In this document: piece by piece, positions 18,568 to 46,094 of the stretch | How positions within the stretch are numbered: the stretch's first letter is position 1 | Layout of the letters: each line of letters opens with the position of its first letter | Origin: Siphonodentalium dalli | Taxonomy: Eukaryota > Mollusca > Scaphopoda > Gadilida > Siphonodentaliidae | Assembly: GCA_032622095.1 (NCBI GenBank) | Contig: CP136061.1 | Coordinates: 87,102,983-87,166,982 of the forward strand | DNA length: 64,000 nt | Direction of reading: 5' to 3' | The notes under the pieces: generated by a model | The model's database searches: none | The model's input: the letters and a program-made list of their open reading frames with translations, nothing else | What the model was told of the DNA's origin: nothing | Made by a program: the position numbers and the translations under genes

Positions 18568-18744
18568 ACGCGCTCCGCTGTCCGCCCCCTTTTGCAATGC
18601 CCATATACGCCGCCTCTATATACGCGCCTTCTTCGCGTTAATGGAACATTATGTCTATATAATGTTCCATTAACGCGAAGAAGGCGCGTATATAGAGGCG
18701 GCGTATATGGGCAGTGCAAAAGGGGGGCGGACAGCGGAGCGCGT
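18568..18744. mobile_element. Near-perfect 177-bp hairpin element
   Basis: Arms of about 86 bp. The left arm starts ACGCGCTCCGCTGTCCGCCC and the right arm is its complement ending GGAGCGCGT, with a 4-nt GTCT loop at 18653-18656. Inside are CATATACGCCGCCTC and CCTTCTTCGCGTTAATGG in both arms. Imperfect only around TTTTGCAATG/CAGTGCAAAA. GC-rich against AT-rich flanks. Possible foldback MITE; the flanks GGGGCCTGTG and GTGGCCTGTG may be remains of a duplication. Confidence 0.8.
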
Positions 18745-19100: not shown

Positions 19101-19569
19101 ATGAGTAGTAATGGGGGGCACTATGGCCCAGTACCCCCCAGTGGGGGGCACTATGGCCCAGTACCCCCCAGTGGGGGGCACTATGGCCCAGTACCCCCCA
19201 GTGGGGGGCACTATGGCCCAGTACCCCCCAGTGGGGGGCACTATGGCCCAGTATCGAATACTGGACCATAGATCGTCCAGTATTCGATACTGGGCCATAG
19301 TGCCCCCCAGTGGGGGCACTATGGCCCAGTATCGAATACTGGACGATCTATGGTCCAGTATTCGATACTGGGCCATAGTGCCCCCCACTGGGGGGTACTG
19401 GGCCATAGTGCCCCCCACTGGGGGGTACTGGGCCATAGTGCCCCACTGGGGGGTACTGGGCCATAGTGCCCCCACTGATGGGTACTGGGCCATAGTTCCC
19501 CCCCTGAGGATAGATATTCCTGTCATTGATGTGATATTTCTGATCGGAAAAAATGAAAATGGACTTAGA
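19101..19569 (+). repeat. Left terminal inverted repeat of the Polinton
   Basis: Matches the reverse complement of 35982-36450 along its full 469 bp with a few differences. From the outer end it holds ATGAGTAGTAAT, four 30-bp units built on GGGGGGCACTATGGCCCAGT, two hairpins containing GTATCGAATACTGGAC and its complement, then about four 30-bp units in reverse orientation, and a unique inner part (GATAGATATTCCTGTC). The repeat is thus itself palindromic. Long open frames cross it only because the unit is a multiple of three. Confidence 0.95.
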
Positions 19570-19649
19570 ATTATTTTTTTTCAAAAGGAAAATCTCACTT
19601 TGGAAAATATCAATTAGCAATCAAGAGTTTTTCTTTTCGAATATTTGGT

Positions 19650-19665
19650 GGCCCTGAAAAGGGCC
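19650..19665 (-). terminator. Histone-type 3'-end stem-loop of the OTU-like gene
   Basis: On the minus strand: GGCCCTTTTCAGGGCC, a six-pair stem with a TTTC loop, preceded by AAAAC and followed by ACCAAA. It lies 19 nt after the stop of the gene starting at 20152. A purine-rich GAAAAGAAAAA stretch follows about 10 nt downstream, where histone pre-mRNAs carry the U7-binding element. It fits the metazoan histone consensus GGYYYTHHTHARRRCC. Confidence 0.75.
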
Positions 19666-19684
19666 GTTTTATTTTTGTTATAGT

Positions 19685-20152
19685 TTAGAATCCGCCACAT
19701 TGAACTTCTTTGTTCGCCAAAACTTCAATTGATTTGTCTCCTCGCCTCATCCATATTTCGCATTCACAATAATGCTCGTGGCAAACGTGTGGGATCCACA
19801 CTAGAGTTATTGATGACTTGAATCTTGGTGTTGATTTGTAGCCGCCTTTGGTAGCATCAAACATGACGATAGGTCGCTGTATAACAGTCGCCGCTAATTC
19901 AACCATCAATCTTGATTCAGCCAAAAGTGGTGTGCGCCGTAAATCTTGTGCCGACGCACCAAGTTCGTCACTCTCTGCGTAGTACAGGTCAACTGCCGCA
20001 TCTCTCAGAACCATCCATCCATCGGTCGTCCCGTAAACCGCAACGCTGAGTGCCCTCCAAAACAGAGATATTTCTTCGCCGCCGCACACTGCTTTACAGT
20101 ATACCCCCTGTACCATTATCTCGTCAAGATCTGTTATGTTTACAGCAGTCAT
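19685..20152 (-). CDS. OTU-like protein with the catalytic cysteine apparently replaced
   Basis: 155-residue protein. Residues 26-36 (EEISLFWRALS) sit where OTU-family cysteine proteases have the DGNCLFRALS-like active-site motif. A VLRDAAVDLY helix follows at 48-57, an RPIVMF strand at 93-98, and the ITLVW...HEHY block at 115-128 resembles the C-terminal His-Tyr motif. OTU enzymes remove ubiquitin-like modifiers; here the cysteine position reads Ser29, so activity is doubtful and a binding or decoy role is possible. The start lies just inside the duplicated bidirectional promoter, with a TATA-like AATATATG about 40 nt upstream. It has a histone-type hairpin 19 nt after the stop. The assignment rests on motif layout by eye only. 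Confidence 0.5.
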   Translation of the reverse strand: MTAVNITDLDEIMVQGVYCKAVCGGEEISLFWRALSVAVYGTTDGWMVLRDAAVDLYYAESDELGASAQDLRRTPLLAESRLMVELAATVIQRPIVMFDATKGGYKSTPRFKSSITLVWIPHVCHEHYCECEIWMRRGDKSIEVLANKEVQCGGF

Positions 20153-20739
20153 CTTTGAATGTAGAATAAGTCAGAAGATCCGTCTTGAACATATATTACG
20201 ATTGTGCGGGCGGTAGAGAAAGCACATAATACTTTGACGTTAAAAATGACAAATGCTTCTTGACGTTGTGTTTCTTTACAGTGCATTATCTGTAGTTTTC
20301 ACTATTTCGATATGTTATAGATTAAATTCATGATAGTATATGCAATTAATTAAGATGTTTTAACATATGAATTCATCTTCGTTCATAAACGATGACCAAG
20401 TAAAGTTATCGATTGTAATGATGAAGAAAAATGTTCAGTATGTTTTCTTGTGTTCAGTTTTATGTATAAAATATGTACATCTCCAAAAACAAAACTAGAA
20501 AAACATTCCATATTTTCCTAACGAGGTAACAAATATATCAATCATGTGTACCAAATAATAGATAATGATCTAACGAAATAAAAAACATTTGTTTGATCGC
20601 TATGCAATAATGATCAAGAAAAATATGAATGCTGATCCGTCTCTGAAAAAACACAATGCCAGGAAACATTTGTCAATTTTAACGTCAATGCGACATGTGA
20701 TTTCATTGACGCCCGTGTCAAATGTATAAAAATATTTTC
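20150..20739. promoter_or_regulatory. Bidirectional promoter region, copy A
   Basis: Non-coding 590-bp region between the divergent OTU-like gene and the 162-residue gene. It is nearly identical to 21757-22349. Each end carries an inverted block (20206-20270 and 20652-20717) with GACGTTAAAA / TTTTAACGTC and CACATGTCGC-like elements, so both genes see the same upstream sequence. TATAAAAATATTTTC at 20725-20739 serves the plus gene. AATATATG around 20190-20197 (minus strand) serves the OTU-like gene. Confidence 0.8.
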
Positions 20740-20775
20740 GAATTTGATCAACGTTACATTGCATTGCTATCAAAG

Positions 20776-21264
20776 ATGGATCCGTTAACAGAATTTCTTC
20801 AGAGTGAGATATACAGTAATCCTGTTGTACAGAATACATATGCGGCACCACAGTCAACAGGCCAAGCTAATACGACAATGACTATAGGTGGAGATACACT
20901 CATTTTAAAAGCGATTTTAGATGAACTGAGATGTCTTCGCAGGGATATTGACGTGAAAACACAAGTAACGCATCAAGAAGTAAAAGTGAATCTTCGTTTC
21001 GTTGCAGAAGAGATAGATATACCAATCAGGGTTCATGATGTTCAGAAATCGAAAGAACAGAAACAGATCAAAAAAGAAAAAATATTGGCTGCGAAAGAAA
21101 AAGAACCTAAAAGTATCATGAAGCCTTCTACTGAGACAAAAGTCAGATTTCGTCTTCCTTGTAAAGAATCTAAAGATACAGAGAAAAGTGATGAATTCGC
21201 AAAAGCTATTGGTTCTCATGGGAAAGATATGTCAAGATATAAGAAAAACACAAAACGATGTTAA
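20776..21264 (+). CDS. Lysine-rich protein of unknown function (left arm gene 2)
   Basis: 162 residues when started at the ATG 51 nt after the TATA box. An upstream in-frame ATG at 20722 overlaps the TATA box and is unlikely to be transcribed. Residues ~1-35 are polar. A likely amphipathic helical segment follows (TLILKAILDELRCLRRDID). The C-terminal half is strongly basic and low-complexity (KSKEQKQIKKEKILAAKEK), suggesting nucleic-acid binding or nuclear targeting. I do not recognise a family. The gene is divergent from the OTU-like gene and ends 22 nt before a histone-type stem-loop. Confidence 0.8.
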   Translation: MDPLTEFLQSEIYSNPVVQNTYAAPQSTGQANTTMTIGGDTLILKAILDELRCLRRDIDVKTQVTHQEVKVNLRFVAEEIDIPIRVHDVQKSKEQKQIKKEKILAAKEKEPKSIMKPSTETKVRFRLPCKESKDTEKSDEFAKAIGSHGKDMSRYKKNTKRC

Positions 21265-21286
21265 AGTCAGATGATAATTTTAAAAC

Positions 21287-21302
21287 GGCCCTTTTCAGGG
21301 CC
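21287..21302 (+). terminator. Histone-type 3'-end stem-loop of the 162-residue gene
   Basis: GGCCCTTTTCAGGGCC preceded by AAAAC and followed by ACACACA, 22 nt after the TAA. The next ~75 nt resemble those after the hairpin at 22744 (AAAAGGTTACTCTTTCAT shared), so the 3' region was duplicated together with the promoter. Confidence 0.75.
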
Positions 21303-21309
21303 ACACACA

Positions 21310-21510
21310 TTTCCCAAAAGGTTACTCTTTCATTGCTGAAAAAATCAAAAACACGATTGTTCAATTTATATTTTATTCAACAACAAATATTTGCAAGTAT
21401 ATTTTGTTTTAAATTATTCGTGGCGTGATTTTTTCAAAACAAAACATAGGGTACAAAGAACATTATTAGTTATTAAGCAATGCTAAAAGTTTTTCTTTTT
21501 GAAAAAATTG
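21310..21510. other. Spacer between the two divergent gene cassettes
   Basis: AT-rich, no ORF. The left half matches 22765-22850. It includes a minus-strand AATAAA, possibly inherited from the neighbouring cassette rather than used here. Confidence 0.6.
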
Positions 21511-21513
21511 GTT

Positions 21514-21529
21514 GGTCCTGAAAAGGACC
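21514..21529 (-). terminator. Histone-type stem-loop with a compensatory pair change
   Basis: Minus strand GGTCCTTTTCAGGACC. Compared with the other four hairpins, the third stem pair is T-A instead of C-G: both sides changed, pairing kept. Followed by ACCAACC and, after TTTTTTC, the purine-rich AAAAAGAAAAA. It is the second hairpin downstream of the 62-residue gene. Confidence 0.75.
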
Positions 21530-21541
21530 GTTTTTGTTTTT

Positions 21542-21557
21542 GGCCCTGAAAAGGGCC
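21542..21557 (-). terminator. Histone-type 3'-end stem-loop of the 62-residue gene (first of two)
   Basis: Minus strand GGCCCTTTTCAGGGCC, 13 nt after the stop at 21571, preceded by AAAAC. Unlike the others it is followed by AAAAACAAAAAC rather than ACC. Only 12 nt separate it from the second hairpin at 21514-21529. Confidence 0.7.
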
Positions 21558-21570
21558 GTTTTGTATGGCA

Positions 21571-21759
21571 TCAAAGTTCACGCCACGATTTTCTTTTGAG
21601 ACTTTTGCTTTTGTTCCAACGCTGTTGTTTTTTGCATATTTGCATAACCAGTTTTGCACTGGCGGTTACTTCTTTTGCGTGTTCGCCCCGCATTATCTGG
21701 GGTGTTAGCCCTATCGTTCCTCTTAGTATAGACATCAACGGTTCGGGGGTTTCGGACAT
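21571..21759 (-). CDS. Small basic protein of unknown function (left arm gene 3)
   Basis: 62 residues. Its ATG sits at the same place in promoter copy B as the OTU-like start does in copy A (both CATCTTTGAATG on the plus strand), which argues that this short frame is a real gene. The C-terminal third is very basic (KKQQRWNKSKSLKRKSWREL), compatible with nuclear targeting or nucleic-acid binding. It has no similarity by eye to the OTU-like protein, although the surrounding non-coding DNA is shared. Two histone-type hairpins follow the stop. An alternative 86-codon frame starting at 21838 would begin upstream of the likely TATA element and is less plausible. Confidence 0.65.
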   Translation of the reverse strand: MSETPEPLMSILRGTIGLTPQIMRGEHAKEVTASAKLVMQICKKQQRWNKSKSLKRKSWREL

Positions 21760-22349
21760 CTTTGAATGCAGAATAAAAATTGTTCACGGCCGTGTTTGAA
21801 CATATATTACGATTGCGCGGGCGGTAGAGAAAGCACATGTCGCATTGACGTTAAAATGACAAATGCTCCCTGACGTTGTGTTTCTTTTCAGTGCATTATC
21901 TGTTAGTTTCACCATTTCGATATGATATAGATTAAATTCATGATAGTATATGCAATTAATTAAGATATTTTAACATATGAATTCATCTTCGTTCATAAAC
22001 GATGACCAAGTAAAGTTATCGATTGTAATGATGAAGAAAAATGTTCAGTATGTTTTCTTGTGTTCAGTTTTATGTATAAAATATGTACATCTCCAAAAAC
22101 AAAACTAGAAAAACATTCCATATTTTCCTAACGAGGTAACAAATATATCAATCATGTGTACCAAATAATAGATAATGATCTAACGAAATAAAAAACATTT
22201 GTTTGATCGCTATGCAATAATGATCAAGAAAAATATGAATGCTGATCCGTCTCTGAAAAAACACAACGCCAGGAAACATTTGTCAATTTTAACGTCAATG
22301 CGACATGTGATTTCTCTACCGCCCGTGTCAAATGTATAAAAATATTTTC
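21757..22349. promoter_or_regulatory. Bidirectional promoter region, copy B
   Basis: Direct repeat of 20150-20739 with only scattered differences. Its inverted blocks (21816-21880 and 22262-22327) pair better than in copy A because both retain GGGCGGTAGAGAAA / TTTCTCTACCGCCC. TATAAAAATATTTTC at 22335-22349 lies 40 nt before the plus-strand ATG. A TATA-like element on the minus strand (ATATATG, ~21800-21806) serves the 62-residue gene. Confidence 0.8.
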
Positions 22350-22374
22350 ACTTTTTCAGTGAACTTCATTCATT

Positions 22375-22725
22375 ATGCCGTCTCTAAAGAAATTTTTCAA
22401 GAAGCTATGGAGGAAGAGAGATTCGTCAGAGGAGACGAAAATCAGAACCTATAGGAAATGGCAGGATTCTCCTGAACAAAAGGTGGTGCAGAAACAGATG
22501 TTAACAGATTTTCTGGCTCGGCGACGACCATCGGCTGAAGTATGTGATCAAGAACCAAGCAATCTTGATCTCGTGGAGATCTTGTCACAGATCTCGAAGA
22601 AAGATCTGTGCAATGCAGCAATTGACAGCTTCGCTCAGGCTGCTGCGGCGCACAGATCAAACCCTACTTGGTCTGTGACAATTAATCCCAACGGGATATA
22701 TCCTGATTTGGCAGAATTTTTATGA
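22375..22725 (+). CDS. Protein of unknown function with a basic amphipathic N-terminus (left arm gene 4)
   Basis: 116 residues. The N-terminus MPSLKKFFKKLWRKRD alternates bulky hydrophobic and Lys/Arg residues, like membrane-active or nuclear-targeting helices. The middle is helical and mixed-charge; residues ~66-93 (LVEILSQISKKDLCNAAIDS and an AQAAAAH stretch) are probably helical too. No known family recognised, and no similarity to the 162-residue protein that occupies the same slot in the other cassette. It follows promoter copy B and ends 18 nt before a histone-type hairpin. Confidence 0.8.
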   Translation: MPSLKKFFKKLWRKRDSSEETKIRTYRKWQDSPEQKVVQKQMLTDFLARRRPSAEVCDQEPSNLDLVEILSQISKKDLCNAAIDSFAQAAAAHRSNPTWSVTINPNGIYPDLAEFL

Positions 22726-22743
22726 ATTCTGGAAAAGAAAAAC

Positions 22744-22759
22744 GGCCCTTTTCAGGGCC
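22744..22759 (+). terminator. Histone-type 3'-end stem-loop of the 116-residue gene
   Basis: GGCCCTTTTCAGGGCC preceded by AAAAAC and followed by ACCCACATT, which is the closest of the five to the classical histone flanks (ACCCA after the stem). It lies 18 nt after the TGA. Confidence 0.8.
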
Positions 22760-22833
22760 ACCCACATTCCCCAAAAAGGTTACTCTTTCATAGCTGAAAA
22801 AAACAAAACAAAACACGATTGTTCAATTCATAA

Positions 22834-22839
22834 TTTATT
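22834..22839 (-). terminator. Poly(A) signal of the zinc-knuckle gene
   Basis: AATAAA on the minus strand about 32 nt after the stop at 22871. This gene, unlike its four left-arm neighbours, has a conventional polyadenylation signal and no hairpin. Confidence 0.6.
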
Positions 22840-22870
22840 CACAATATAATTTTCAAATGTTTGTATCGAT

Positions 22871-23446
22871 TCATTTATCTGTTTTTGGAATGTAGAATTG
22901 TCTCAGCTTCTTTTTCTTGGAAGTTTTCTTGGAATTTTCAAAATCTGGATGCTTATCTTCAGATTTGTTCTGTGAATCATTCGTAGGATCAACAGGTCGG
23001 GGTTGTTTGAAAACATCTGATGTTGTAGACATCTCTTCAGTTTTGATAACTGCATTTTGTTCTTGTATTGTTACTGCTTGTAGACTTTTTTGTATAGTTT
23101 TCACATTTTTTTTGTCGTCGAAATCTGTTTTACATTGGAAGGACCAATGGGAGTCTTGTCCGCATTTGTAACAGTAACCATATGGTGGTTTCCAATTTTT
23201 ATCAGCTTTGTTTTTCTCTTTTTTCTCTTGCCATTGCATTTTGTTACAAAATTTAAACAAATCAGTAGAGATCTGTCTCAATTCGACAAGATTATCTTGA
23301 ATTTTTCTAGTCTGTAGTAGTGTAGATTCTTCTTTATGCAGCTCAATATAGCTCTCTTCAATAACTGCAGGCCTTGGTCTTTTTCTAACAATATCTTCTT
23401 CGCTGGCGGAGTCGTCTGAAACAGGTCTTTTGATTCTCTTAAACAT
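22871..23446 (-). CDS. CCHC zinc-knuckle protein, divergent from the polymerase
   Basis: 191 residues. Residues 1-32 are identical to the start of the DNA polymerase and include basic clusters (KRIKRP, RKRPRP) that could act as a nuclear signal, between acidic patches. Residues ~40-83 are helical and charged. A single retroviral-type zinc knuckle follows with Cys92, Cys95, His100 and Cys105 (CX2CX4HX4C) in CYKCGQDSHWSFQC. The tail is polar and ends in a Lys-rich stretch (KKTSKKKKLRQ). Zinc knuckles bind single-stranded nucleic acid, so a replication or packaging role is possible; the function is inference. It shares the palindromic promoter with the polymerase. Confidence 0.85.
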   Translation of the reverse strand: MFKRIKRPVSDDSASEEDIVRKRPRPAVIEESYIELHKEESTLLQTRKIQDNLVELRQISTDLFKFCNKMQWQEKKEKNKADKNWKPPYGYCYKCGQDSHWSFQCKTDFDDKKNVKTIQKSLQAVTIQEQNAVIKTEEMSTTSDVFKQPRPVDPTNDSQNKSEDKHPDFENSKKTSKKKKLRQFYIPKTDK

Positions 23447-23752
23447 TTTTGTCTTGAGTTTTTGTCAGCAAAAAATATTGCGACTGGCTTCTTCGGAGTT
23501 GAAGTGTAAAGTGTATAATTACACAATTTTAACACCTGCTTTTATAGCAGTGACTGCTATAAAAGCAAGTGTAAAATTGTGTAATTATACACTTTACACT
23601 TCAACTCCGAAGAAGCCAGTCGCAATATTTTTTGCTGACAAAAACTCAAGACAAAAATGTTTAAGAGAATCAAAAGACCTGTTTCAGACGACTCCGCCAG
23701 CGAAGAAGATATTGTTAGAAAAAGACCAAGGCCTGCAGTTATTGAAGAGAGC
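23351..23752. promoter_or_regulatory. 402-bp near-perfect palindromic bidirectional promoter
   Basis: Axis near 23552. Two TATA boxes in mirror positions (TTTTATA 23540-23546 for the minus gene, TATAAAA 23558-23564 for the plus gene) lie 11 bp apart. Both 5' leaders and the first 32 codons of both divergent genes are inside the arms. The only clear arm differences lie near the centre (AACACCTGC against ACACTTGC). ATGs are about 93 nt beyond each TATA box. Confidence 0.9.
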
Positions 23753-26700
23753 GAAATGGAAACTGATGAGGCAGAAAGTGAAGAGAGCGATATGGAAACT
23801 GATGAGGCAGAAAGTGAAGAGAGCGATATGGAAACTGATGAGGCAGAAAGTGAAGAGAGCGATATGGAAACTGATGGAGGCGAAAGTGAAGAAAGTTCTA
23901 GTGATGGTCAGATTGGACGCGGTCGAAGACAGAATAGAGAAATTGGTGGGAAGAGAAAGAGAAGTCTGGCTAGAGAGCGTGTTGTGTTCAATCCAACAAA
24001 ATATTTCAAATTGGAGCTGAACTCGGAGAAATTTTCCAGAAAATTTAAATCAGCATCACGACAATTTGGTGTGAAATTCGAGAAATTTACAGATCCAATC
24101 GAAAACATTCCAGAGATATTTGAGAAGTTGACAGAAGAATTGAAACAGAAATGTTCAGCAAATGAGAAGACAAGAATCAGAGTTACGATAAATCATCCAG
24201 GACTTGATATGAACATTTTCATTCCATTCACAAAAGCCAGTGAATTGAATGGTGAGACACTCATGGATAATATTCAAAATGTGGTTCAATCAAATGCAGA
24301 CTTTACAATTCATGACGGTGCACTCAATTTCGAAATCTTCGTTACAGATATTCCGGAAGGTGGTACACGACACTCACTACATTATGGACCATTTGCAGAC
24401 AAGAACAAGCTTACAAAAGTGAAAAGAAGTATTGTCCGGATTGAAAATGCTGATGATGTTATGTGTATGGCAAGATCTATTGTCGTCGGAATGTGTAAGG
24501 CAGATAGTGATGGATCTGCGTGCTGGTCAAAGAAATGGAAAAGAATAAGACAATCAATATACACAGCACAAACAGATGCAGCAAAAAATCTACTCAACCG
24601 TGCTGGTATTCCACACGATACAGTTTGCAGTATCAATGAGTTCCACAAGATTCAAGAAATATTGTATCCAGAATATGTTGTGAAAATTCACAATGAATTT
24701 GCTGGCGCTGGATTTCTATTTGAACCTGCAGAAATGTGTTCGGAGAGCAAATGTGTACACATCTACTACAACAACAATCACTTCGACACCATAACATCAA
24801 TCAAAGGATTTCTAGGCACCAGCTACTACTGCGAATTCTGTGACATTGGATTCAAAAGTCGTGGCGATCATCGATGCAGATTTGTTTGTGCATGCTGGTC
24901 ATTGACACAGTGTAATTTCACAAATTTGGTGAAGTGTAGAACGTGTCGACGATCATTCAGAAGTAAATCTTGTTTCGACAACCATTTGAAGACGGAAGGA
25001 AAACAGAAAAGAAAAATATGTGATTTGGTTCAACTATGCAACATTTGTGATGAAGAATTTCTCATCAATAAATCAAACAGACATATATGTGCGGGGTTGA
25101 AGAAATGCAAACATTGCAAAGAAATCGTTGAAGCAGATCACAGGTGCTACATTCCAAAATATGAATCACCGGAAAAGAAACCTGCAAAGATTCCATATGT
25201 ATTCTTTGACTTTGAATGCAGACAAGACACAGGTGTTCATATTCCAAACTTCTGTGTTGCACATACCGCTTGTGGAGATTGCATGTGCAAACCAATCGAA
25301 GAAAAATGTGAAACATGCGGACCGGATTCCAGAGAATTTGTATTCAAGGGTGACAACGTTTTAACAGACTTCACAAACTGGTTATTCCATCAAGATCACA
25401 AAGGATGTGTTGCAATAGCACATAATGCTCAGGGGTACGATGCACAGTTTCTACTTCAAGCACTCATACAAAGTGGAATTCATAAACCAGAACTGATCAT
25501 GAATGGAAACAAAATTCTCAGTTTAAAATGCAACAGCGTGAAAGTTATTGATTCTCTGAGTTTTCTGATGATGCCGCTTTCAAAATTTCCACAAACTTTT
25601 CAGCTGAATGAGATGGCAAAAGGACACTTTCCACATTGGGCGAATTCACCAAAGTTTCAAAATTACATTGGACATTACTTGGCTTCTGATTACTACAAAC
25701 CAGACATGATGAGCGTGGAAAATCGAGAGAAATTCTTTGAATGGTACAATGAGAAAATAGAAAATTATGCGATATTCAACTTCCAAGAAGAGATAGAGAA
25801 GTACTGCAAATCAGACGTGGATATTCTTCGCCGTGGATGTGGAAAATTCAGGAAATACATATTGGAAACAGAACAGATTGACCCGTTCATTGAGTCAATA
25901 ACATTGGCACAAGTTTGCAATTTGGCATGGAGGAAGAATTCAATGCCAGAGAAAACAATTGGAATCATTCCAGATGGTGGATACCCATGTGCTAAAAACT
26001 ATTCCATGAAAGCGATACGTTGGCTTCAACATATATCATTGTCACGTATGATAACAATCAAGCATGCTTTGAATGGAGGAGAAATCAAGATTGGTGGACA
26101 CTACGTCGATGGATATGAGGAAGCCACAAGAACAGTTTTTGAGATGAATGGATGTCTGTTTCATGGATGTCCAAAATGTTACAACAACAGACAATACAAG
26201 AATCCCTATACGATGCTCACCATGGAAGAATTATATACAAGAACCCAACAGAAGAAAGATGAACTGGAAAGTCTTGGTTACAGAGTTGAATCAATTTGGG
26301 AGCATCAGATCGACGAAAGAATGAAATCGGATGTGAAATTCAAACAACAAATGGAATCTTTCTACAAACATCGAGACCCTATTTTGCCAAGAGAAGCATT
26401 GTTTGGTGGACGTACAAATGCCATCAAATTGTACGAGGAAATTGATCAAGATTCCACAAAAGAAATCAAGTTCATCGATGTGTGTTCGTTGTATCCATTT
26501 TGCAACAAATATAAATTCTACCCTGTTGGACATCCAGAAATTTTGAGCCAAGAGCAGATCGATCAAGAACACATTAGAGACTATGCGGGGCTTGTTAAAT
26601 GTACAATTTTACCATCATCGAAATTGTATATTCCAGTTCTACCGATTCATTGTAACAAGAAAATGGTTTTTACTCTGTGCAACACTTGTGCCATCAATGA

Positions 26701-27730
26701 GAACGAGGCATGTAACCATTCAGAAGAAGATCGAGCTATAACCGGAGTGTGGACCACGCCAGAATTATTCAAAGCAATGGATGTTGGCTACAAAATACTT
26801 GATGTGTACCAAATTTGGCATTGGACAGATTGGACAGATGAAATATACAAATCCTATATCGATAAACATCTAAAGATCAAACAGGAATGTAGTGGTTATC
26901 CATTTGGTGTTGAGACAGAAGAACAGAAACAAAAGTTTGTACAGGATTATTATGCAGCTGAGGGTATAAATTTGGAGAACATCGAGAAGAATCCAGGAAA
27001 ACGTCAAATATCTAAAATTATGATTAATTGTATATGGGGTAAGAATGCACAAAGAAATCTTATGTCAAAAACAGAGTATGTGGATAAACCATCACGTTAT
27101 TTTGAATTGCTTACTAGTAACAATATAATTGTTCAAAATGTTACACTTCTTGATGGTGACAAATTCATTCTGGTAAATTATGTTGACATCTTAGATAATA
27201 TTGAACCTCATCATTCAGCAAATGTTGTTGTTGCTTCTTTTGTTACAGCGTATGCAAGATTACAATTGTATAAAGTTTTAGAAAAACTTGGAGATAGAGT
27301 GCTGTATTTTGATACAGACAGCTGTATGTATGTCAGTGATCCATCAAAGAAGAACATCAAAACTATCGAAGGAAGATTGGGGAAATGGAGCGACGAACAT
27401 CCAGATGCAAAGATTGTCAAATTTGTTGGACTTGGGCCAAAGAACTACGGATATGAATACATCAAAGATGGGGTAAGATACACCAAATGTAAGGTAAAAG
27501 GTATCACTCTTGATTACAGCACAAGTCAAAAAGTTAATTTTGAAACAATGGTACAATGTGTTAATGATCGTGAAAATTTCAAAACTGTTGTTGAGTATCC
27601 TTCCAGAATTAAAAGACAAAAGAACCATCAATTGATTAGTGAGTGTCAAACCAAAACTTTCAGATCGGTGTACACAAAACGAAAACTCGTCAATGGTATT
27701 CATACATACCCATACGGATGGAGATGTTGA
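23657..27730 (+). CDS. POLB: Protein-primed family B DNA polymerase (Polinton pPolB)
   Basis: 1357 residues; replicates the element from protein-primed ends. Residues 1-32 are shared with the divergent zinc-knuckle protein. Residues ~33-80 are four acidic 12-residue repeats (SDMETDEAESEE). Paired Cys/His clusters at about 392-500 (CEFC, CRTC, CNIC, CKHC) look like zinc-binding modules. The 3'-5' exonuclease has DFE at 518-520, HNAQGYD at 589-595 and YCKSD at 716-720. Polymerase motifs are DVCSLYP 941-947, KIMINCIWGKN 1120-1130 and YFDTDS 1217-1222; a KVKGIT-type motif follows near the C-terminus. All catalytic acidic residues are present, so the enzyme should be active. A mirror-image TATA box drives it. 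The length is at the upper end for Polintons because of the acidic N-terminus. Confidence 0.97.
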   Translation: MFKRIKRPVSDDSASEEDIVRKRPRPAVIEESEMETDEAESEESDMETDEAESEESDMETDEAESEESDMETDGGESEESSSDGQIGRGRRQNREIGGKRKRSLARERVVFNPTKYFKLELNSEKFSRKFKSASRQFGVKFEKFTDPIENIPEIFEKLTEELKQKCSANEKTRIRVTINHPGLDMNIFIPFTKASELNGETLMDNIQNVVQSNADFTIHDGALNFEIFVTDIPEGGTRHSLHYGPFADKNKLTKVKRSIVRIENADDVMCMARSIVVGMCKADSDGSACWSKKWKRIRQSIYTAQTDAAKNLLNRAGIPHDTVCSINEFHKIQEILYPEYVVKIHNEFAGAGFLFEPAEMCSESKCVHIYYNNNHFDTITSIKGFLGTSYYCEFCDIGFKSRGDHRCRFVCACWSLTQCNFTNLVKCRTCRRSFRSKSCFDNHLKTEGKQKRKICDLVQLCNICDEEFLINKSNRHICAGLKKCKHCKEIVEADHRCYIPKYESPEKKPAKIPYVFFDFECRQDTGVHIPNFCVAHTACGDCMCKPIEEKCETCGPDSREFVFKGDNVLTDFTNWLFHQDHKGCVAIAHNAQGYDAQFLLQALIQSGIHKPELIMNGNKILSLKCNSVKVIDSLSFLMMPLSKFPQTFQLNEMAKGHFPHWANSPKFQNYIGHYLASDYYKPDMMSVENREKFFEWYNEKIENYAIFNFQEEIEKYCKSDVDILRRGCGKFRKYILETEQIDPFIESITLAQVCNLAWRKNSMPEKTIGIIPDGGYPCAKNYSMKAIRWLQHISLSRMITIKHALNGGEIKIGGHYVDGYEEATRTVFEMNGCLFHGCPKCYNNRQYKNPYTMLTMEELYTRTQQKKDELESLGYRVESIWEHQIDERMKSDVKFKQQMESFYKHRDPILPREALFGGRTNAIKLYEEIDQDSTKEIKFIDVCSLYPFCNKYKFYPVGHPEILSQEQIDQEHIRDYAGLVKCTILPSSKLYIPVLPIHCNKKMVFTLCNTCAINENEACNHSEEDRAITGVWTTPELFKAMDVGYKILDVYQIWHWTDWTDEIYKSYIDKHLKIKQECSGYPFGVETEEQKQKFVQDYYAAEGINLENIEKNPGKRQISKIMINCIWGKNAQRNLMSKTEYVDKPSRYFELLTSNNIIVQNVTLLDGDKFILVNYVDILDNIEPHHSANVVVASFVTAYARLQLYKVLEKLGDRVLYFDTDSCMYVSDPSKKNIKTIEGRLGKWSDEHPDAKIVKFVGLGPKNYGYEYIKDGVRYTKCKVKGITLDYSTSQKVNFETMVQCVNDRENFKTVVEYPSRIKRQKNHQLISECQTKTFRSVYTKRKLVNGIHTYPYGWRC
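23753..23896 (+). repeat. 36-bp in-frame tandem repeat in the polymerase gene
   Basis: Four copies of a 36-bp unit (GATATGGAAACTGATGAGGC...) encoding an acidic 12-residue repeat. The array starts exactly where the 402-bp palindrome stops. Confidence 0.9.
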
Positions 27731-28376: not shown

Positions 28377-29027
28377 ATGGAAGAATCTTTACTTTTCCAA
28401 CATCCGTGTAATTTCTTTATCAGCGGACCTAGTGGATCAGGTAAAACAGAATTTGTTAAAAAAGTTATTGAATTTAAACACGATTTATTCCAAACACCAC
28501 CAAAGAAAATAGTTTGGTGTTACAAAGAATGGCAAGACACATACAATCGTATAAAAGAAATTGATAACGTTAAGTTTATCGATGGTATTCCAGACGATGA
28601 TGAGGAAATTGTATCAGATAAATCATTTCCTCATCTTGTTGTTTTCGATGACATGATGGGGGAACAAGATGAAGACAAAATAATGCTTTGGTTTACTAGA
28701 AAAGGTCATCATCGAAATGCTTCAATAATTTACATTACTCAAAACATGTTCCAAAAATCAAAAAGTAGCAGAACTATAAGTTTGAATGCACACTACATGG
28801 TTTTATTTCAAAGCGTTCGAGATAAAAATCAAATAAAAGTTTTGGCTCATCAAATGCAAACCAATCATTTGAAACAAGCATACGAAGATGCAACTTCAAT
28901 AAATCATGGATATATTTTAGTAGATTTTCATCCTAGAACAGAAAATTATTTGCGAATTAGAACTGATATTTTCCATAAATGGTTGACAGCTAATGACCGA
29001 GGTCCTGTCATATATTCAAAAGTATAA
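28377..29027 (+). CDS. ATP: A32-like genome-packaging ATPase (FtsK-HerA superfamily)
   Basis: 216 residues. Walker A GPSGSGKT at 17-24, Walker B HLVVFDD at 86-92, and a sensor-type ITQNMF near 119-124. The size and motif order match the packaging ATPases of Polintons, virophages and related viruses, which drive DNA into the capsid. No membrane segment. The reading frame is intact; 33 nt separate it from the preceding gene. Assignment to the family is secure; the packaging role is by analogy. Confidence 0.95.
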   Translation: MEESLLFQHPCNFFISGPSGSGKTEFVKKVIEFKHDLFQTPPKKIVWCYKEWQDTYNRIKEIDNVKFIDGIPDDDEEIVSDKSFPHLVVFDDMMGEQDEDKIMLWFTRKGHHRNASIIYITQNMFQKSKSSRTISLNAHYMVLFQSVRDKNQIKVLAHQMQTNHLKQAYEDATSINHGYILVDFHPRTENYLRIRTDIFHKWLTANDRGPVIYSKV

Positions 29028-30088: not shown

Positions 30089-30796
30089 ATGAAGAAAATG
30101 GTTATTGTACCATTCAGAATGTTGGAAGATTTCAAACAATGGGAAATGTCAGAAATGAATAAACCTCAATTACCTCCTGATCCTGCAATTTCAAATGTTT
30201 CAGATTCTTACAAAGAATTGAAATCAGTTTATGATAAAAATATTTCTGAATCAGAAAAGTCACAGTTATTTGGAGAAAATTTGTACAAATTGAAAACTTC
30301 ACAAAAATCTTTAAATTCAAAATTCAGATTACCTGAACAAAAGTTATCTGAAAACTTTGGGAAAATGAGTGACCATATATTGGAAAGTGTGCCATCTAAA
30401 TTTCGTGGTAAAGCACAACAAATTTTATCATTGTTGTCAACTAATCCTAAACTTAGATGGGATGATCGTGGACAATTAATTTATGGAACAGAAACAGTTA
30501 CTGGATCAAATATAATTGATTTGATAAACGATGTTGTTCGTCACCGAAAAGGTTTTAACCCAGTTGGTTATGAAACATTCCTACGTGGATTGGGGGAACT
30601 TAATATACCACAAGATTATGTAGGTAACAGGGATCGATGGCTGTGGATGCAAAGACATTTAAAAGGTCACACTGGTGATGAGTTTCATACACCTCATGCA
30701 ACTCCTATCAGTGGCAAGTCAAGAAAACGTTCAGTTGATATTTTAACACCAGAAACCAGAAAAACTATTTTGAAAGGATGGTCCTCACTTACATAA
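30089..30796 (+). CDS. Polinton-conserved protein of unknown function
   Basis: 235 residues. N-terminal MVIVPFRMLEDF, a helical charged middle, then a more conserved-looking C-terminal domain: LRWDDRGQLIYG (about 137-148), SNIIDLINDVV and NPVGYETFLRGLGELNIP. This pattern is familiar from uncharacterised proteins encoded beside Polinton integrases in marine invertebrates, but I cannot assign a biochemical function. It overlaps the integrase start by 19 nt. AATAAA at 30082-30087 lies just before its ATG and could serve the upstream gene. Confidence 0.8.
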   Translation: MKKMVIVPFRMLEDFKQWEMSEMNKPQLPPDPAISNVSDSYKELKSVYDKNISESEKSQLFGENLYKLKTSQKSLNSKFRLPEQKLSENFGKMSDHILESVPSKFRGKAQQILSLLSTNPKLRWDDRGQLIYGTETVTGSNIIDLINDVVRHRKGFNPVGYETFLRGLGELNIPQDYVGNRDRWLWMQRHLKGHTGDEFHTPHATPISGKSRKRSVDILTPETRKTILKGWSSLT

Positions 30797-31872
30797 AATT
30801 TGACAAACTTCTAACTGAAATTTACTACAATCCAAAAGAAGTTGGTGGTTTCAGTGGAGCAAATCAACTTTTTAAAAATGCAAAAGAAACAAATAACAAA
30901 ATTAAACTTTCAGATGTTAAAAAATGGTTACAATGGCAAAAAACATATACTTTGCACAAACCAATTGTTCGGAAATTTCGCAGACGTAAAACTATTGTTG
31001 CAGGAATTGATATTCAGTGGCAAGCTGATCTGGCAGATTTGCAAACTTTGCAAAAGCACAATGACAATTACAGATATTTACTTTGTGTTATTGATGTGTT
31101 CTCAAAATTTGCATGGGTTGAAAAAATTAAAGATAAAACTGGTAAAACTTTAGTTAAAACATTTCAGAAAATTCTAAAATCATCAAAACGAAAACCAGCT
31201 TCATTTCAATCTGACAAAGGTTCAGAATTCAAAAATAAATTATTTTTACAATTTTTGAAATCTAAGAAAATTCATTTTTTCACAACAGAGAATCCAGAGA
31301 CAAAAGCAAGTATAGTTGAACGTTTTCAACGGACATTGAAAACAAAGATGTGGAAATATTTTACACATAATCAAACTTTGAAATACGTTGATGTTTTGCA
31401 CGATTTTGTGAATTCTTACAACAAAAGTTTTCATAGAAGTATTAAGATGGCACCAGTTTTAGTAACTCGAGAAAATGAAATTGAAGTTTCCAGAAATCTT
31501 TATGGAAAGTTAAAAACGAAAAAAGATAAGATGTTGAAAGTTGGAGATTTTGTTAGAATAAATAAAACAAAGAGAACTTTTGATAAAGGATATCTTCCAA
31601 ATTGGACAAAAGAAATTTTCAAAATTAGTAGAGTTTGTAAAAGTACACCATTAACTTACAAATTAGTAGATTTAGATGGTGAAAACATCGCAGGATCATT
31701 TTATGGTAAAGAAATTCAACATATAAAAGATAATAAAGTTTACGAAATTGAATCAGTTGTTGGTAAACGTTCAAGAAAAGTTGCTGGTAAATCAGTTAGA
31801 GAAATTAAAGTTCATTGGGCTGGTTATCCTAAAAAATTTGACAGTTGGATACCTGCCACAAATTTGGTATAA
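30778..31872 (+). CDS. INT: Retroviral-type integrase with C-terminal chromodomain
   Basis: 364 residues; inserts the linear genome into host chromatin. The N-terminal ~75 residues contain the VGGFSGANQLFK and WLQWQKTYTLHKP segments typical of Polinton integrases. The rve catalytic core carries Asp84 (WQADLADL), Asp146 (QSDKGSEF) and Glu181 (ASIVERFQ); the last two are separated by 34 residues, close to the retroviral DD35E spacing. A chromodomain-like module occupies about 322-364 (YEIESVV...IKVHWAGYPKKFDSWIP), which in related integrases reads histone methyl-lysine marks and directs target choice. All catalytic residues are present. The start overlaps the preceding gene. Confidence 0.96.
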   Translation: MVLTYIKFDKLLTEIYYNPKEVGGFSGANQLFKNAKETNNKIKLSDVKKWLQWQKTYTLHKPIVRKFRRRKTIVAGIDIQWQADLADLQTLQKHNDNYRYLLCVIDVFSKFAWVEKIKDKTGKTLVKTFQKILKSSKRKPASFQSDKGSEFKNKLFLQFLKSKKIHFFTTENPETKASIVERFQRTLKTKMWKYFTHNQTLKYVDVLHDFVNSYNKSFHRSIKMAPVLVTRENEIEVSRNLYGKLKTKKDKMLKVGDFVRINKTKRTFDKGYLPNWTKEIFKISRVCKSTPLTYKLVDLDGENIAGSFYGKEIQHIKDNKVYEIESVVGKRSRKVAGKSVREIKVHWAGYPKKFDSWIPATNLV

Positions 31873-33376: not shown

Positions 33377-34681
33377 ATGGCACAAATGGTAAATGGATCA
33401 TGCGAATGCAATAAATCGGAACTTGATATAACACATGTTCCACCAACGGTGGCTACAATGTCAGAATCGCAGTGGATCGAAAATCATCCTATTGCACCGC
33501 TGAATAATTCTGCTCCGATAGAGTTTGTCATACCATCTCAAACCGAAAAGTGGACAGATATTAATCAATCTTATCTTTATGTGAAATTCAAAATTACAAA
33601 AAAAGATGGAACTAATTTGGTAGCTGCTACGGAATTAGCACCTGTTAACAATTTCTTTCATAGCATGTTCAGCAGTATCGATGTTTACTTGAACAACAAA
33701 TTGATAACTTCGAATTCTGACACTTACCCATACCGAGCATATTTCGAAAATCTGTTGGGATACTCTCAAGAATATAAAGATAATCAATTAGCAAATTTAG
33801 AAATGTGGTATGGCGATACAGCAGAACAATTTGAAGAGAGCACCAAAGGTGGTACTAATGCTGGATTAACTTCTAGAGAAAGTTTGATCACTGGTAGTAA
33901 ATTTGTTGAACTATGCGGACGCTTACACACCGATCTGTTTCTTCAAGAAAAATATTTACCAAATGGAATTGAAATTCGTATCAGATTAAACAGATCACCA
34001 TCAAAATTTTGCCTCATTGGCTCCGAGGATGGACAAATTGTTTTCGAATCAGCAGTGTTCCATGTCAGAACAGTTAGTCTCTTTCCAGCGGTCTCAAATA
34101 AATTAAATCAAGAAATTGCCCAGTCAAAAATGAAACTACCTATCAGACGAGTAGAAATAAAAACTTTCACAATTAGTACTGGACTTAGATCAAAAATTGA
34201 AGACCACTTATTTCAAGGACAATTACCAAAGAGACTTTTTATTGCGTTGGTCGAAAATAAAGATATGAATGGAGATTTGGGTACCAATCCATTCCACTTC
34301 AAACATTTCAGTTTGAATAAATTGGAAGTTAGTCAAGACGGTCATACAATACATAACCGTCCATTTGAACCAAACTTCGCAACAAAACAATGTCTCAGAT
34401 CATATTTATCTTTGTATCAATCTTTAGGAATGTTTGGTGTTAACAAATCAATTGGCATTAATTTAAAAGAATATATGAATGGATATTGTTTGTGGGGTTT
34501 CGACTTGACACCGGACCAAGGAAGCGACGAGGGACATCTACATCCTATAAAGACAGGGAACCTGCGTTTGGAGCTTCAGTTCTTGACAGCTCTCACTACA
34601 GCCGTCAACGTTTTGGTGTATGCTGAATTCGACAGTGAAATAGAGATCACAGCTTTGAGAGAAGTGCTTACTGACTATTAG
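33377..34681 (+). CDS. MCP: Major capsid protein, double jelly-roll
   Basis: 434 residues; predicted to trimerise into hexon-like capsomers. Characteristic stretches are IEFVIPSQTEKWTDINQSYL (~48-67), PVNNFFHSMFSSIDVYLNNK (89-108) followed by TYPYRAYFENLL, then GRLHTDLFLQEKYLPNGIEI and the C-terminal NVLVYAEFDSEIEI strand. These match the double jelly-roll capsid proteins of Polintons. Length is in the usual range (about 430-650), on the short side. The frame is intact from ATG to TAG. The N-terminal GSCECNKSE word is unusual but has no assigned role. Confidence 0.95.
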   Translation: MAQMVNGSCECNKSELDITHVPPTVATMSESQWIENHPIAPLNNSAPIEFVIPSQTEKWTDINQSYLYVKFKITKKDGTNLVAATELAPVNNFFHSMFSSIDVYLNNKLITSNSDTYPYRAYFENLLGYSQEYKDNQLANLEMWYGDTAEQFEESTKGGTNAGLTSRESLITGSKFVELCGRLHTDLFLQEKYLPNGIEIRIRLNRSPSKFCLIGSEDGQIVFESAVFHVRTVSLFPAVSNKLNQEIAQSKMKLPIRRVEIKTFTISTGLRSKIEDHLFQGQLPKRLFIALVENKDMNGDLGTNPFHFKHFSLNKLEVSQDGHTIHNRPFEPNFATKQCLRSYLSLYQSLGMFGVNKSIGINLKEYMNGYCLWGFDLTPDQGSDEGHLHPIKTGNLRLELQFLTALTTAVNVLVYAEFDSEIEITALREVLTDY

Positions 34682-34682
34682 G

Positions 34683-35141
34683 ATGGAGTTCACAACACAG
34701 CTATGGAACTACTATGAAGAATACCGACGTTCACAACACGTTGCTCCGAGATTAAAACTGATCTTGGACACACTCAACAACGCTACGATTGAAGAACTAC
34801 AAGAAATTATTCGCAAGGAAGTGTCAGCAAACTGTGAAGGATGTAAAATAGAACATCCTAGTCAACGTGAACATGTTCTGTGTTTGTTCTCTACAACTGA
34901 TGATTGGACAAACCAGTTTATCGACTTAGCGCTGATTAAAATTGACATATACAATGTTATGGAAAGATGGTTCCCGAAGCTGATGGAGTTAAACCCACAC
35001 TGCAAGGAGAAGTTCGAAGCATACCTTATGTGGGATCATCTGAGAAACAGTTTGGAGCTCAACCGCAAAAAATTCGATGCAGAGTGGACTCTGATGTGGT
35101 CACAGCGAGTCAAAGAGAATTACAACGATGCAGACAGCTGA
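34683..35141 (+). CDS. Conserved Polinton-type protein with Cys/His motif, unknown function
   Basis: 152 residues starting one base after the capsid stop codon. A helical N-terminal part precedes CEGCKIEHPSQREHVLC at about residues 51-67, a Cys/His group that could bind zinc. A helical C-terminal part follows (RWFPKLMELNPHCKEKFEAY). Proteins with the CxxCxxxHPSQxxH word often accompany Polinton capsid genes, by recollection. The biochemical role is unknown. It overlaps the protease start by 14 nt. Confidence 0.78.
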   Translation: MEFTTQLWNYYEEYRRSQHVAPRLKLILDTLNNATIEELQEIIRKEVSANCEGCKIEHPSQREHVLCLFSTTDDWTNQFIDLALIKIDIYNVMERWFPKLMELNPHCKEKFEAYLMWDHLRNSLELNRKKFDAEWTLMWSQRVKENYNDADS

Positions 35142-35601
35142 ACTTCAATATATTCTGGACAATTCCTGGTTGTGTAAACTTAACACACATGTTTGTGCTA
35201 GAGATCTGTTACCAGAGAAGAAACCACAGCATATTCAAGCATATATTGTGAACACGCACTCATCGGATCAGCCAGGAGAACACTGGACATTGATGTTATT
35301 CAAGGGAAGATCAGCTGTATACTTCGACTCATTTGGACTACCACCACCGAGACGATATATGTTACCATTCATAAAAAGGAACTCATCAGCATGGACTATG
35401 AATACAACACGATATCAACATCGTGCGACAAATGTGTGTGGATTATATTGTATATTCGCACTCCACCACATGATGAAAGGAAAGAGGATGAAAATATTAT
35501 TCAATTCTCGGGATTTCTTCAAGAATGACAGAACAATAGTTCGATGGTTTGGAAAGCACTATGGTCGATTATACAGAAAAGCAAATTTGCTGTTGAATTA
35601 A
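35128..35601 (+). CDS. PRO: Adenain-like cysteine protease (Ulp1/C48-C5 type)
   Basis: 157 residues; probably matures virion proteins. Catalytic residues visible in order: His52 (PGEHWTLMLF), Asp67 (AVYFDSFG), Gln97 (RYQHRA) and Cys104 (NVCGLYCIF), the His-Asp/Glu-Gln-Cys arrangement of adenovirus protease and Ulp1-type enzymes. Candidate substrates are the QRGG, QKGG and QYGNG motifs in the three small basic proteins of this element. The size is slightly below adenain. It is the last gene of the block and its frame is intact. Confidence 0.93.
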   Translation: MQTAELQYILDNSWLCKLNTHVCARDLLPEKKPQHIQAYIVNTHSSDQPGEHWTLMLFKGRSAVYFDSFGLPPPRRYMLPFIKRNSSAWTMNTTRYQHRATNVCGLYCIFALHHMMKGKRMKILFNSRDFFKNDRTIVRWFGKHYGRLYRKANLLLN

Positions 35602-35981
35602 ACTTCACCAGGACATCGACGGCTGATATACATACAACGCAAAGAAGACGAAGATAACAACGAATGTGTCAACAACTCCACAAAATAGACTCTTTTGTTA
35701 TTGATTCAGCGTAGGATGTTGTAGGATGTTGTAGGATGTTCAATTAAGTTTCTTCAAATCTGAGACCTTGTTTTGTACATAAATTATTGTTCTTTGTTAA
35801 TATTATTGATGTATAATAATATATTATTGTTCATTGTTCTTGTTCTTGTTTTTGAAAAATAAATGATAAATTTCAACAAAATCGTTTTCACTGTAGGATC
35901 CCCACCAATTGATTCTGTTCGTGTCGATGTGTCATCTCTGGTCAGAATTATACAAACTTTAAAATTAGTAATGAAAAAATG
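35602..35981 (+). other. 3' region of the right-hand gene block
   Basis: No gene. Contains three tandem TGTAGGATGT units at 35712-35741 and a conventional AATAAA at 35858-35863, the likely polyadenylation signal for the block. No histone-type hairpin is found here. Confidence 0.6.
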
Positions 35982-36450
35982 TCTAAGTCCATTTTCATTT
36001 TTTCCGATCAGAAATATCACATCAATGACAGGAATATCTATCCTCAGGGGGGAACTATGGCCCAGTACCCATCAGTGGGGGGCACTATGGCCCAGTACCC
36101 CCCAGTGGGGCACTATGGCCCAGTACCCCCCAGTGGGGGGCACTATGGCCCAGTACCCCCCAGTGGGGGGCACTATGGCCCAGTATCGAATACTGGACCA
36201 TAGATCGTCCAGTATTCGATACTGGGCCATAGTGCCCCCACTGGGGGGCACTATGGCCCAGTATCGAATACTGGACGATCTATGGTCCAGTATTCGATAC
36301 TGGGCCATAGTGCCCCCCACTGGGGGGTACTGGGCCATAGTGCCCCCCACTGGGGGGTACTGGGCCATAGTGCCCCCCACTGGGGGGTACTGGGCCATAG
36401 TGCCCCCCACTGGGGGGTACTGGGCCATAGTGCCCCCCATTACTACTCAT
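35982..36450 (-). repeat. Right terminal inverted repeat of the Polinton
   Basis: Reverse complement of the left repeat, same length. The two differ in the number of G residues per unit at a few places (for example GTGGGGCAC at 36106 on this side), so they are not perfectly homogenised. It ends ATTACTACTCAT. Confidence 0.95.
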
Positions 36451-36719
36451 ATTCATTTGGAATTTGGCGGAATCAAATTAAAGTGAATTGAATCACGTCT
36501 TCAATAAATAATGCCAGTTTTCCTTACATTCTGTATATATGTGGTGGCAGTGGTCTGAACAGCGTAGCGACCGGACTGACTCTGCATTGCAGTTTCAGGC
36601 CAGGAACCTATATATACGTCACAATTTTAAGTCTCTAACCCAAAGTGGTTTTGATTTTAAATCTGTTTAAAACACACATACACGTTTGTTTGACGGGATA
36701 AACTAGTACATGAGCTGTG

Positions 36720-37138: not shown

Positions 37139-37488
37139 TACAAGGAAAATATGTAATGATTGTGTCCAGATTTTGAAAATCAAACACGCCTAAACTCTTA
37201 AATAGATATTCGACGACGATGAGGGTGACAACAATGGTGATGATGATGATGACGACGACAATAATTACACACACAACGGTCCCCGAATTCGATAGCCAAA
37301 TGTCACTTTATGTACATACATTTAAATGGAGAGGAGGGTATTCTAAGTGATTTAGCACTTGTCCTCCAGTCCCTTTTGTCATAAACTAATTTAATTTATG
37401 AACAAATAAAATATGTTTAAACTAATAAATTTATATAACTCTATATTTAGTGCATACTAGTACTATTGAGTTATCATTAAAGTATCAA

Positions 37489-46090: not shown

Positions 46091-46094
46091 CATA

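Follow-up and report, generated by a model that had tools for sequence, protein, structure and literature searches.

Can a mobile element end its mRNAs in the manner in which its host ends histone mRNAs? The question is raised by a stretch of the genome of the scaphopod mollusc Siphonodentalium dalli (GenBank assembly GCA_032622095.1, contig CP136061.1, positions 87,102,983 to 87,166,982), which is 64,000 nucleotides (nt) long, is called the window here and supplies the coordinates used below. The window holds one Polinton-type element, bounded by terminal inverted repeats at ~19104-19577 and ~35974-36447, and five genes lie to the left of its family B DNA polymerase gene (PolB). Four of them form two divergent pairs, of 155 amino acids (aa) on the minus strand with 162 aa on the plus strand and of 62 aa (minus) with 116 aa (plus); the fifth, which encodes a 191-aa CCHC protein, stands beside PolB and is read leftwards. 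An earlier reading, made from the sequence alone, claimed that all four left-arm genes end in hairpins of the histone mRNA type. Four genes do carry such hairpins, but the arm has a fifth, the 191-aa gene, which carries none. To our knowledge, 3′ ends of this type have been described almost only on histone genes, and animal Polintons are not known to carry them. On the sequence evidence set out below, we consider it highly probable that this element uses the host histone 3′-end pathway for the four mRNAs concerned.

Histone-type hairpins at the ends of four genes

Five 16-nt hairpins were located, at 19650-19665 (minus strand), 21287-21302 (plus), 21514-21529 (minus), 21542-21557 (minus) and 22744-22759 (plus). 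These are the places given by the sequence-only reading, and a search allowing up to three mismatches found the hairpin nowhere else in the 64 kb; when the window was shuffled, matches averaged 0.12, with a maximum of 1. Four of the five read exactly GGCCCTTTTCAGGGCC. The remaining one, at 21514-21529, reads GGTCCTTTTCAGGACC, in which two compensatory changes replace a C-G pair by T-A and the pairing is kept. All five fit the consensus GGYYYTHHTHARRRCC, taken in the form in which that reading had stated it, base for base as it had claimed, with six pairs and with an A-rich run ending in C upstream. Every hairpin is in sense orientation to its gene, and the 62-aa gene has two in tandem. The first hairpin begins 19 nt past the stop codon of the 155-aa gene, 22 nt past that of the 162-aa gene, 13 nt (the proximal hairpin) past that of the 62-aa gene and 18 nt past that of the 116-aa gene, so that an interval of 13-22 nt on the sense strand was confirmed at all four.

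The Rfam covariance model Histone3 (RF00032), which had been proposed as a check, reported four of the five hairpins above its gathering threshold of 34 bits (42.6, 41.8, 40.1 and 37.1 bits), each time over all 46 positions of the model, including its downstream part. At 22.2 bits, the proximal hairpin of the tandem fell below gathering, because the second hairpin fills its downstream region. The five signals are as follows.

19624..19670, minus strand: 3′ signal of the 155-aa gene; hairpin 19650-19665 with purine-rich GAAAAGAAAAAC; RF00032, 41.8 bits
21282..21326, plus strand: 3′ signal of the 162-aa gene; hairpin 21287-21302; RF00032, 40.1 bits
21488..21534, minus strand: distal 3′ signal of the 62-aa gene; hairpin 21514-21529, then CAAAAAGAAAAAC; RF00032, 37.1 bits
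21537..21562, minus strand: proximal hairpin of the 62-aa gene, 21542-21557, without a downstream element of its own
22739..22784, plus strand: 3′ signal of the 116-aa gene; hairpin 22744-22759; RF00032, 42.6 bits

Purine tracts lie downstream of two of the three minus-strand hairpins, as had been stated. The 191-aa gene provides an internal contrast: there is no hairpin at its end, and an AATAAA at 22839-22834 (minus) stands there instead. A chance origin of the hairpins is ruled out by the shuffles and the RF00032 matches. A histone gene inside the window was also considered and rejected; tblastn with H3 and H4, and not H2A or H2B, as queries returned a single 13-residue match (E value 3.2).

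The hairpin in host histone genes and in copies of the element

The host genome (2.23 Gb in 9 contigs) was searched with RF00032, and the best 75 of 409530 candidates were scored; 1 of 14 controls gave a signal, below the cut-off. Among these 75 sites, 63 were clustered on contigs C5 (111.42-111.74 Mb) and C8 (156.30-156.93 Mb), and the remaining 12 (L002-L006 and the places behind L043-L048) were copies of the Polinton element. The list is incomplete, because the window's own four sites are absent from it. In stretches taken from the clusters (L007-L009, L040-L042, L049), the hairpins lie 3′ of H2A, H2B and H4 genes. At 23 of 23 sites in four of these stretches (L040-L042, L049) the host hairpin is identical to the 16-mer of the element, and Rfam counts 23 there too. 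The host hairpins are preceded by AAAC and followed by ACCCAAATTTTCCAAAAAGA at H2A and H2B genes, or by a ACCAAATT-type sequence with AAAGA at H4 genes; downstream of the hairpin, these host histone genes have ACC and then an AAAGA-type element. The comparison with host histone genes that the sequence-only reading had called for thus showed the 16-nt hairpin to be shared and the elements downstream of it to be alike. The spacing differs: the hairpin starts 13-22 nt past the stop codon in the element vs 29-35 nt in the host histone genes. The same 16-mer occurs among human histone hairpins (PMC7807067), and a search of the literature with the hairpin letters returned one paper, this one on human H2A.X. 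As a side observation, the host arrays in L040-L042 consist of units of ~4 kb with H2A, H2B and H4, with no H3 in the stretches read, and in L040 an extra block, which has a 270-aa open frame, separates one H2B from H2A.

The downstream modules were compared with those of the host by local alignment of the 50 nt past each hairpin, with 2000 shuffles for each comparison. The distal module of the 62-aa gene scored 55 with H2B, 47 with H2A and 42 with H4, values reached by 0, 0 and 1 of the 2000 shuffles (mean shuffled score with H2B, 21.5). For the 155-aa gene, the scores were 43 with H2A, 42 with H2B and 28 with H4 (reached by 0, 0 and 101 shuffles). The modules of the plus-strand genes scored lower, at 33, 28 and 23 with H2B, H2A and H4 for the 162-aa gene (8, 65 and 388 shuffles) and at 30, 30 and 13 for the 116-aa gene (18, 28 and 1956 shuffles). 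By these alignments, the minus-strand modules are close to host H2A and H2B; the plus-strand modules fit the Rfam model well and the host flanks weakly.

The copies of the element that were compared all belong to one Polinton family. Loci were recruited by the hairpin model (L002-L009 and L050-L060), by the 3′ end of the 116-aa gene at 100% identity (L010-L039), by hand from 114 PolB places (L061-L068) or by hand from 150 ATPase places (L069-L071). With a 261-nt query spanning the end of the 116-aa gene, 40 of 1008 candidates were scored, all at 100%. Thirty of these loci were cut out, and 28 have four exact hairpins in the stretch; L025 has three and L035 two. With the PolB palm as query, 114 of 1919 candidates were scored, all at 99-100% protein identity and with no stops inside the match, which argues that the family is young or still moving; at some of these places the open frame around the match is shortened. 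The presence of at least 114 palm copies at this identity in one host genome points to a very recent burst. The stretches fetched for the eight copies picked by PolB contain 35 hairpins, all in agreement with the consensus; the hairpin of the 155-aa gene lay beyond the fetched stretch in five of the eight.

Eleven more diverged copies, with 89-99% identity over the left arm depending on the aligned piece, cover 49 hairpins, of which 41 are unchanged and 45 keep all six pairs. Once the hairpin that recruited each locus was left out (12 of the 49), 7 of 592 hairpin sites differed, vs 1628 of 36564 other left-arm sites, an approximately fourfold slower rate (binomial 6e-6, a value that treats sites as independent in copies that are related). 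A further left arm, with 90.7% identity over 3090 nt, came from L071, picked by its ATPase. Its 62-aa protein is only 62.5% identical over 40 residues, and it keeps four of the four hairpins in the stretch, three of which Rfam reports (40.1, 39.3 and 31 bits, the last below gathering). The presence of the hairpin in related copies, a check that the sequence-only reading had named, is thus borne out, including in copies picked by genes other than those that carry it. The other two loci picked by ATPase, L069 and L070, were fetched upstream of the ATPases on C3 and C9; they have no hairpin and no match to the left arm of the element, may not be left arms at all, and are uninformative either way. 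The two A32-type ATPases themselves (C3:230925031-230925513 and C9:56018982-56019473) outscore that of this family and may belong to other elements.

Single-protein scans of a collection of viral contigs, with PolB, its palm, the capsid candidate, the integrase or the ATPase as query, found no relatives, nor did a scan of a collection of genome contigs with the PolB palm; such scans reach close relatives only. The exact hairpin 18-mer had no match in the viral contigs. The sole match there to a degenerate pattern (L001) was rejected, as it lies antisense inside a 2055-aa open reading frame (ORF), has one pair broken and is not called by Rfam; its contig also carries tRNA genes and is phage-like.

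Probable processing by the host pathway and its alternatives

In the interpretation that we favor, the four outer left-arm genes end in complete host-type processing signals of replication-dependent histone genes, composed of an A-rich leader, a 6-bp stem with a UUUC loop, an ACCA-type spacer and a purine-rich downstream element. In the known pathway, SLBP binds the stem-loop, the U7 small nuclear ribonucleoprotein (snRNP) pairs with the purine-rich downstream element, and CPSF-73 cuts, leaving an mRNA without poly(A) (PMC7807067). Since the viral signals hold each of the cis parts, the host machinery should process them: host SLBP would bind the hairpin, U7 snRNP would bind the downstream element, and cleavage a few nucleotides past the stem would leave the pre-mRNA with no poly(A) tail. 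SLBP is S-phase-specific (PMC7807067), so that expression of the four genes, which are presumably early ones, would be confined to S phase and tied to host DNA replication. The host has an SLBP gene, detected with PF15247 as two exon-like pieces on C2 (E values 3.1e-13 and 3.9e-4, both over the cut-off), the weaker of which has an internal stop, as at an exon edge. Poly(A) signals are present instead for the 191-aa gene and for the run of rightward genes. The statement that virion genes use AATAAA was loose in this respect; near its end, the rightward run has an ATTAAA at 35597-35602 as well as an AATAAA at 35858-35863. Taken as a whole, the histone-pathway interpretation first offered by the sequence-only reading is supported.

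Several observations weigh against it. A search of the host for U7 (RF00066) gave no matches, with only 65 of 541557 candidates scored and the controls silent, and is uninformative. Changes occur in 8 of the 49 hairpins of the diverged copies, and in 4 of the 49 a pair is lost. Substitutions outside the hairpins amount to 3.1% in the downstream modules, 1.9% in the 3′ flanks and 2.5% in the 191-aa gene, rates that leave out the 30 near-identical loci because partial loci were aligned to the paralogous intergenic copy; the downstream modules are thus no slower than the other two classes, and it is the hairpins that carry the argument from conservation. The likeness to host flanks is also uneven. 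The match of the 155-aa module to H4 is weak (101 of 2000 shuffles), and the plus-strand modules match host histone genes weakly and H4 not at all (388 and 1956 of 2000). When 4000 random 50-mers were drawn from the element, without exclusion of the modules, 3 reached the score of the 155-aa module with H2A and 1 that of the 62-aa module with H2B; with H2B, 13 reached the score of 33 of the 162-aa module and 23 the score of 30 of the 116-aa module. Finally, two AATAAA motifs lie close to minus-strand hairpins, one at 19673-19668, between the stop codon of the 155-aa gene and its hairpin, which adds to what had been described before, and the other at 21377-21372, ~136 nt beyond the distal hairpin of the 62-aa gene.

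Because of these two motifs, dual 3′ ends are possible. As in vertebrate H2A.X, for which dual 3′-end processing is reported (PMC7807067), a stem-loop form would be made in cycling cells and a polyadenylated form otherwise, and expression would not be strictly bound to S phase. We regard this arrangement as rather unlikely, though worth keeping in mind. Neither plus-strand hairpin is followed on its strand by AATAAA or ATTAAA before the next opposing gene (the first such motif after 21302 is at 21772), and the AATAAA at 21377 may be a leftover, being part of a duplication (21339-21379 vs 22801-22841) of which the other copy is at the end of the 191-aa gene. It is also conceivable that binding of SLBP, or of a related factor, to the hairpins serves only the translation or the stability of the RNA and that no U7-dependent cleavage takes place. 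The empty and uninformative U7 search and the weak match of the plus-strand downstream elements to those of the host would fit such a role, but the minus-strand modules share downstream sequence with host H2A and H2B far above chance and the four above-gathering Rfam matches include the downstream part, and we judge it improbable.

A recent chance capture of histone-gene DNA, with no role for the element, would explain the similarity of the flanks to host H2A and H2B by descent from a host histone gene, and captured rRNA genes in another collection of Polinton-like viruses (PLVs) were judged likely non-functional (PMC12220804). Passive leftovers of this kind are nevertheless hard to reconcile with the presence of the hairpins in sense at four of four genes, with their slower change than their surroundings across diverged copies, with their retention in L071 despite its much diverged 62-aa protein, or with the compensatory stem change at 21514-21529; moreover, the four unlike coding regions would demand repeated or duplicated capture. 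We therefore give this explanation very little weight. Still less do we expect the hairpins to act as DNA, with a part in replication, packaging or transposition and none in RNA processing. The terminal repeats of the element hold long hairpins too, but the hairpins at issue are strand-specific at gene ends, have a histone-specific loop and flanks, are identical to those of host histone genes and are found nowhere else in the window, and a DNA role would be most surprising.

Gene pairs, the remainder of the element and known systems

The genes and intergenic regions of the left arm are the following.

19685..20152, minus strand: 155-aa protein, family unassigned; ORF, no Pfam match
20153..20775, no strand: divergent intergenic region 1; three TGACGT, one ACCGCCC, TATA box before the plus-strand gene
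20776..21264, plus strand: 162-aa protein with LXCXE-type motif LPCKE; ORF, motif search
21571..21759, minus strand: 62-aa basic protein; ORF, leader aligned with the first unit
21760..22374, no strand: divergent intergenic region 2, a copy of region 1; repeat family D5, blastn
22375..22725, plus strand: 116-aa protein, family unassigned; ORF, no Pfam match
22871..23446, minus strand: 191-aa CCHC zinc-knuckle protein; zf-CCHC matches below the cut-off

The LXCXE motif binds Rb and is used by early proteins of small DNA tumor viruses. Its occurrence as LPCKE in the 162-aa protein compares with 0.016 expected from composition, and the other four left-arm proteins have no motif of this type. At 14 of 19 loci, which are related copies and non-independent, the 162-aa frame is full-length, and 13 of these 14 have an LXCXE-type motif; one locus is truncated and four have no match to the start. 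A single-sequence AlphaFold model of the 155-aa protein (predicted local distance difference test score, 39.7) was uninformative.

Intergenic regions 1 and 2 share 94% identity over 594 nt (20150-20739 vs 21757-22349), and the 3′ ends of the two plus-strand genes are 87% alike over 120 nt (21282-21396 vs 22739-22856). No match between the coding regions was found when the two gene pairs were compared by blastn. With promoter and 3′-end blocks duplicated and coding regions unmatched, the arrangement looks like gene exchange in a fixed cassette. Each intergenic region has three TGACGT, a half-site for ATF and the cAMP response element; three were reached in 0 and 1 of 500 mononucleotide shuffles, and the region upstream of PolB has no TGACGT. 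Capture of the promoter from the host was considered and dropped for want of a significant alignment, the best between host and viral divergent promoters having an E value of 0.10 and ACCGCCC alone being in common. We are evenly divided on whether this Polinton took over the host histone 3′-end module, and perhaps the divergent layout too, for fast-evolving early genes including the one with the LXCXE motif. Its early mRNAs would then be made, processed and destroyed together with host histone mRNAs, the element would be active only in S phase, and coding regions could be swapped between a fixed promoter and histone-type ends.

Outside the left-arm genes, the element has the following features.

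19104..19577, no strand: left terminal inverted repeat, partner ~35974-36447; repeat search and comparison of end sequences
23657..27730, plus strand: family B DNA polymerase, 1357 aa; DNA_pol_B_2 in two pieces, 2.4e-30 and 1.9e-06
28377..29027, plus strand: A32-type packaging ATPase; Pox_A32 1.3e-08, 35.1 bits vs a cut-off of 22.8
30778..31872, plus strand: integrase with chromodomain; rve 1.3e-12, Chromo 1.7e-05
35128..35601, plus strand: adenovirus-type cysteine protease, weak match; Peptidase_C5 E value 0.0005, 20.2 bits vs a cut-off of 21.3
35974..36447, no strand: right terminal inverted repeat; repeat search

The arms of the terminal repeats pair at 100% (19101-19473 with 36078-36450) and 96% (19499-19577 with 35974-36052), and at 19101-19480 and 36047-36450 they consist of 30-nt direct repeats laid out as long palindromes. 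Rfam matches of the left terminal repeat to microRNA families were below gathering; microRNA and snoRNA matches were set aside as below gathering and palindrome-derived. Polintons generate a 6-bp target-site duplication; no matching 6-mers were seen by eye at the assumed ends of this element, which are only approximately defined. For the candidate double jelly-roll capsid protein (33377-34681), neither a Pfam match nor a significant sequence match in PDB was obtained. Between the 191-aa CCHC gene and PolB, at 23343-23760, there is a near-perfect inverted repeat with 189-nt arms (98%), because of which the two proteins share their first 32 residues (MFKRIKRPVSDDSASEED...). Just outside the element, a near-perfect 68-nt inverted repeat with a 6-nt spacer, like a miniature inverted-repeat transposable element, occupies 18585-18726, and a tandem repeat of 59-nt units adjoins its right end at 36661-37211. 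Farther away, at 45972-46634, a short-unit tandem repeat gives rise to long open frames in several frames.

In its PolB, A32 ATPase, chromodomain integrase, weak adenovirus-like protease match and terminal inverted repeats, the element resembles Polintons (Mavericks) of the adintovirus type, and it is most likely a recently amplified member of that group. The sequence-only reading knew of no description of histone-type ends in Polintons. For animal Polintons this stands in the literature searched, which likewise yielded no use of such ends by DNA viruses (the paper describing adintoviruses lay outside the search); in the accessible text of PMC5799277, Polinton is named in the reference list only. 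For the wider group, a bare count is in print: six histone 3′ untranslated region (UTR) stem-loops were counted, undiscussed, in a collection of PLV and virophage genomes (PMC12220804). These belong to the same RNA family and are found in elements related to Polintons. They differ from the present case in that the accessible text gives the count without position, host, gene or mechanism, and in that PLVs and virophages are not animal Polintons. In the same paper, the non-coding RNAs of cryptophyte PLVs are restricted to tRNAs and group I introns. If our interpretation is correct, the six unexplained stem-loops (PMC12220804) would deserve examination. The element would also be a clear case of a parasite exploiting the SLBP/U7 pathway, with the full signal on four non-histone genes, and would have a route to S-phase-limited early expression without a poly(A) tail; its modules would be natural non-histone substrates showing which parts of the signal matter.

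Among cellular and viral systems, H2A.X genes have a stem-loop and a possible nearby poly(A) signal (PMC7807067), as the minus-strand genes of the element do, but H2A.X is a cellular histone gene. The 162-aa protein, with its LXCXE-type motif, recalls the 'Oncoid' early genes of small DNA tumor viruses, a class whose sole defining feature is the possession of short linear motifs (PMC11071296); the likeness is one of motif alone. The 'Histoid' genes, which encode histone-like proteins of other viruses, are a separate matter (PMC11071296). The histone 3′ UTR stem-loop is itself a close known system: the hairpin, spacer and downstream element of the Polinton match both the model and host H2A, H2B and H4. 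Unlike those of the host, they sit on four non-histone genes of a mobile element, one of which has its hairpins in tandem.

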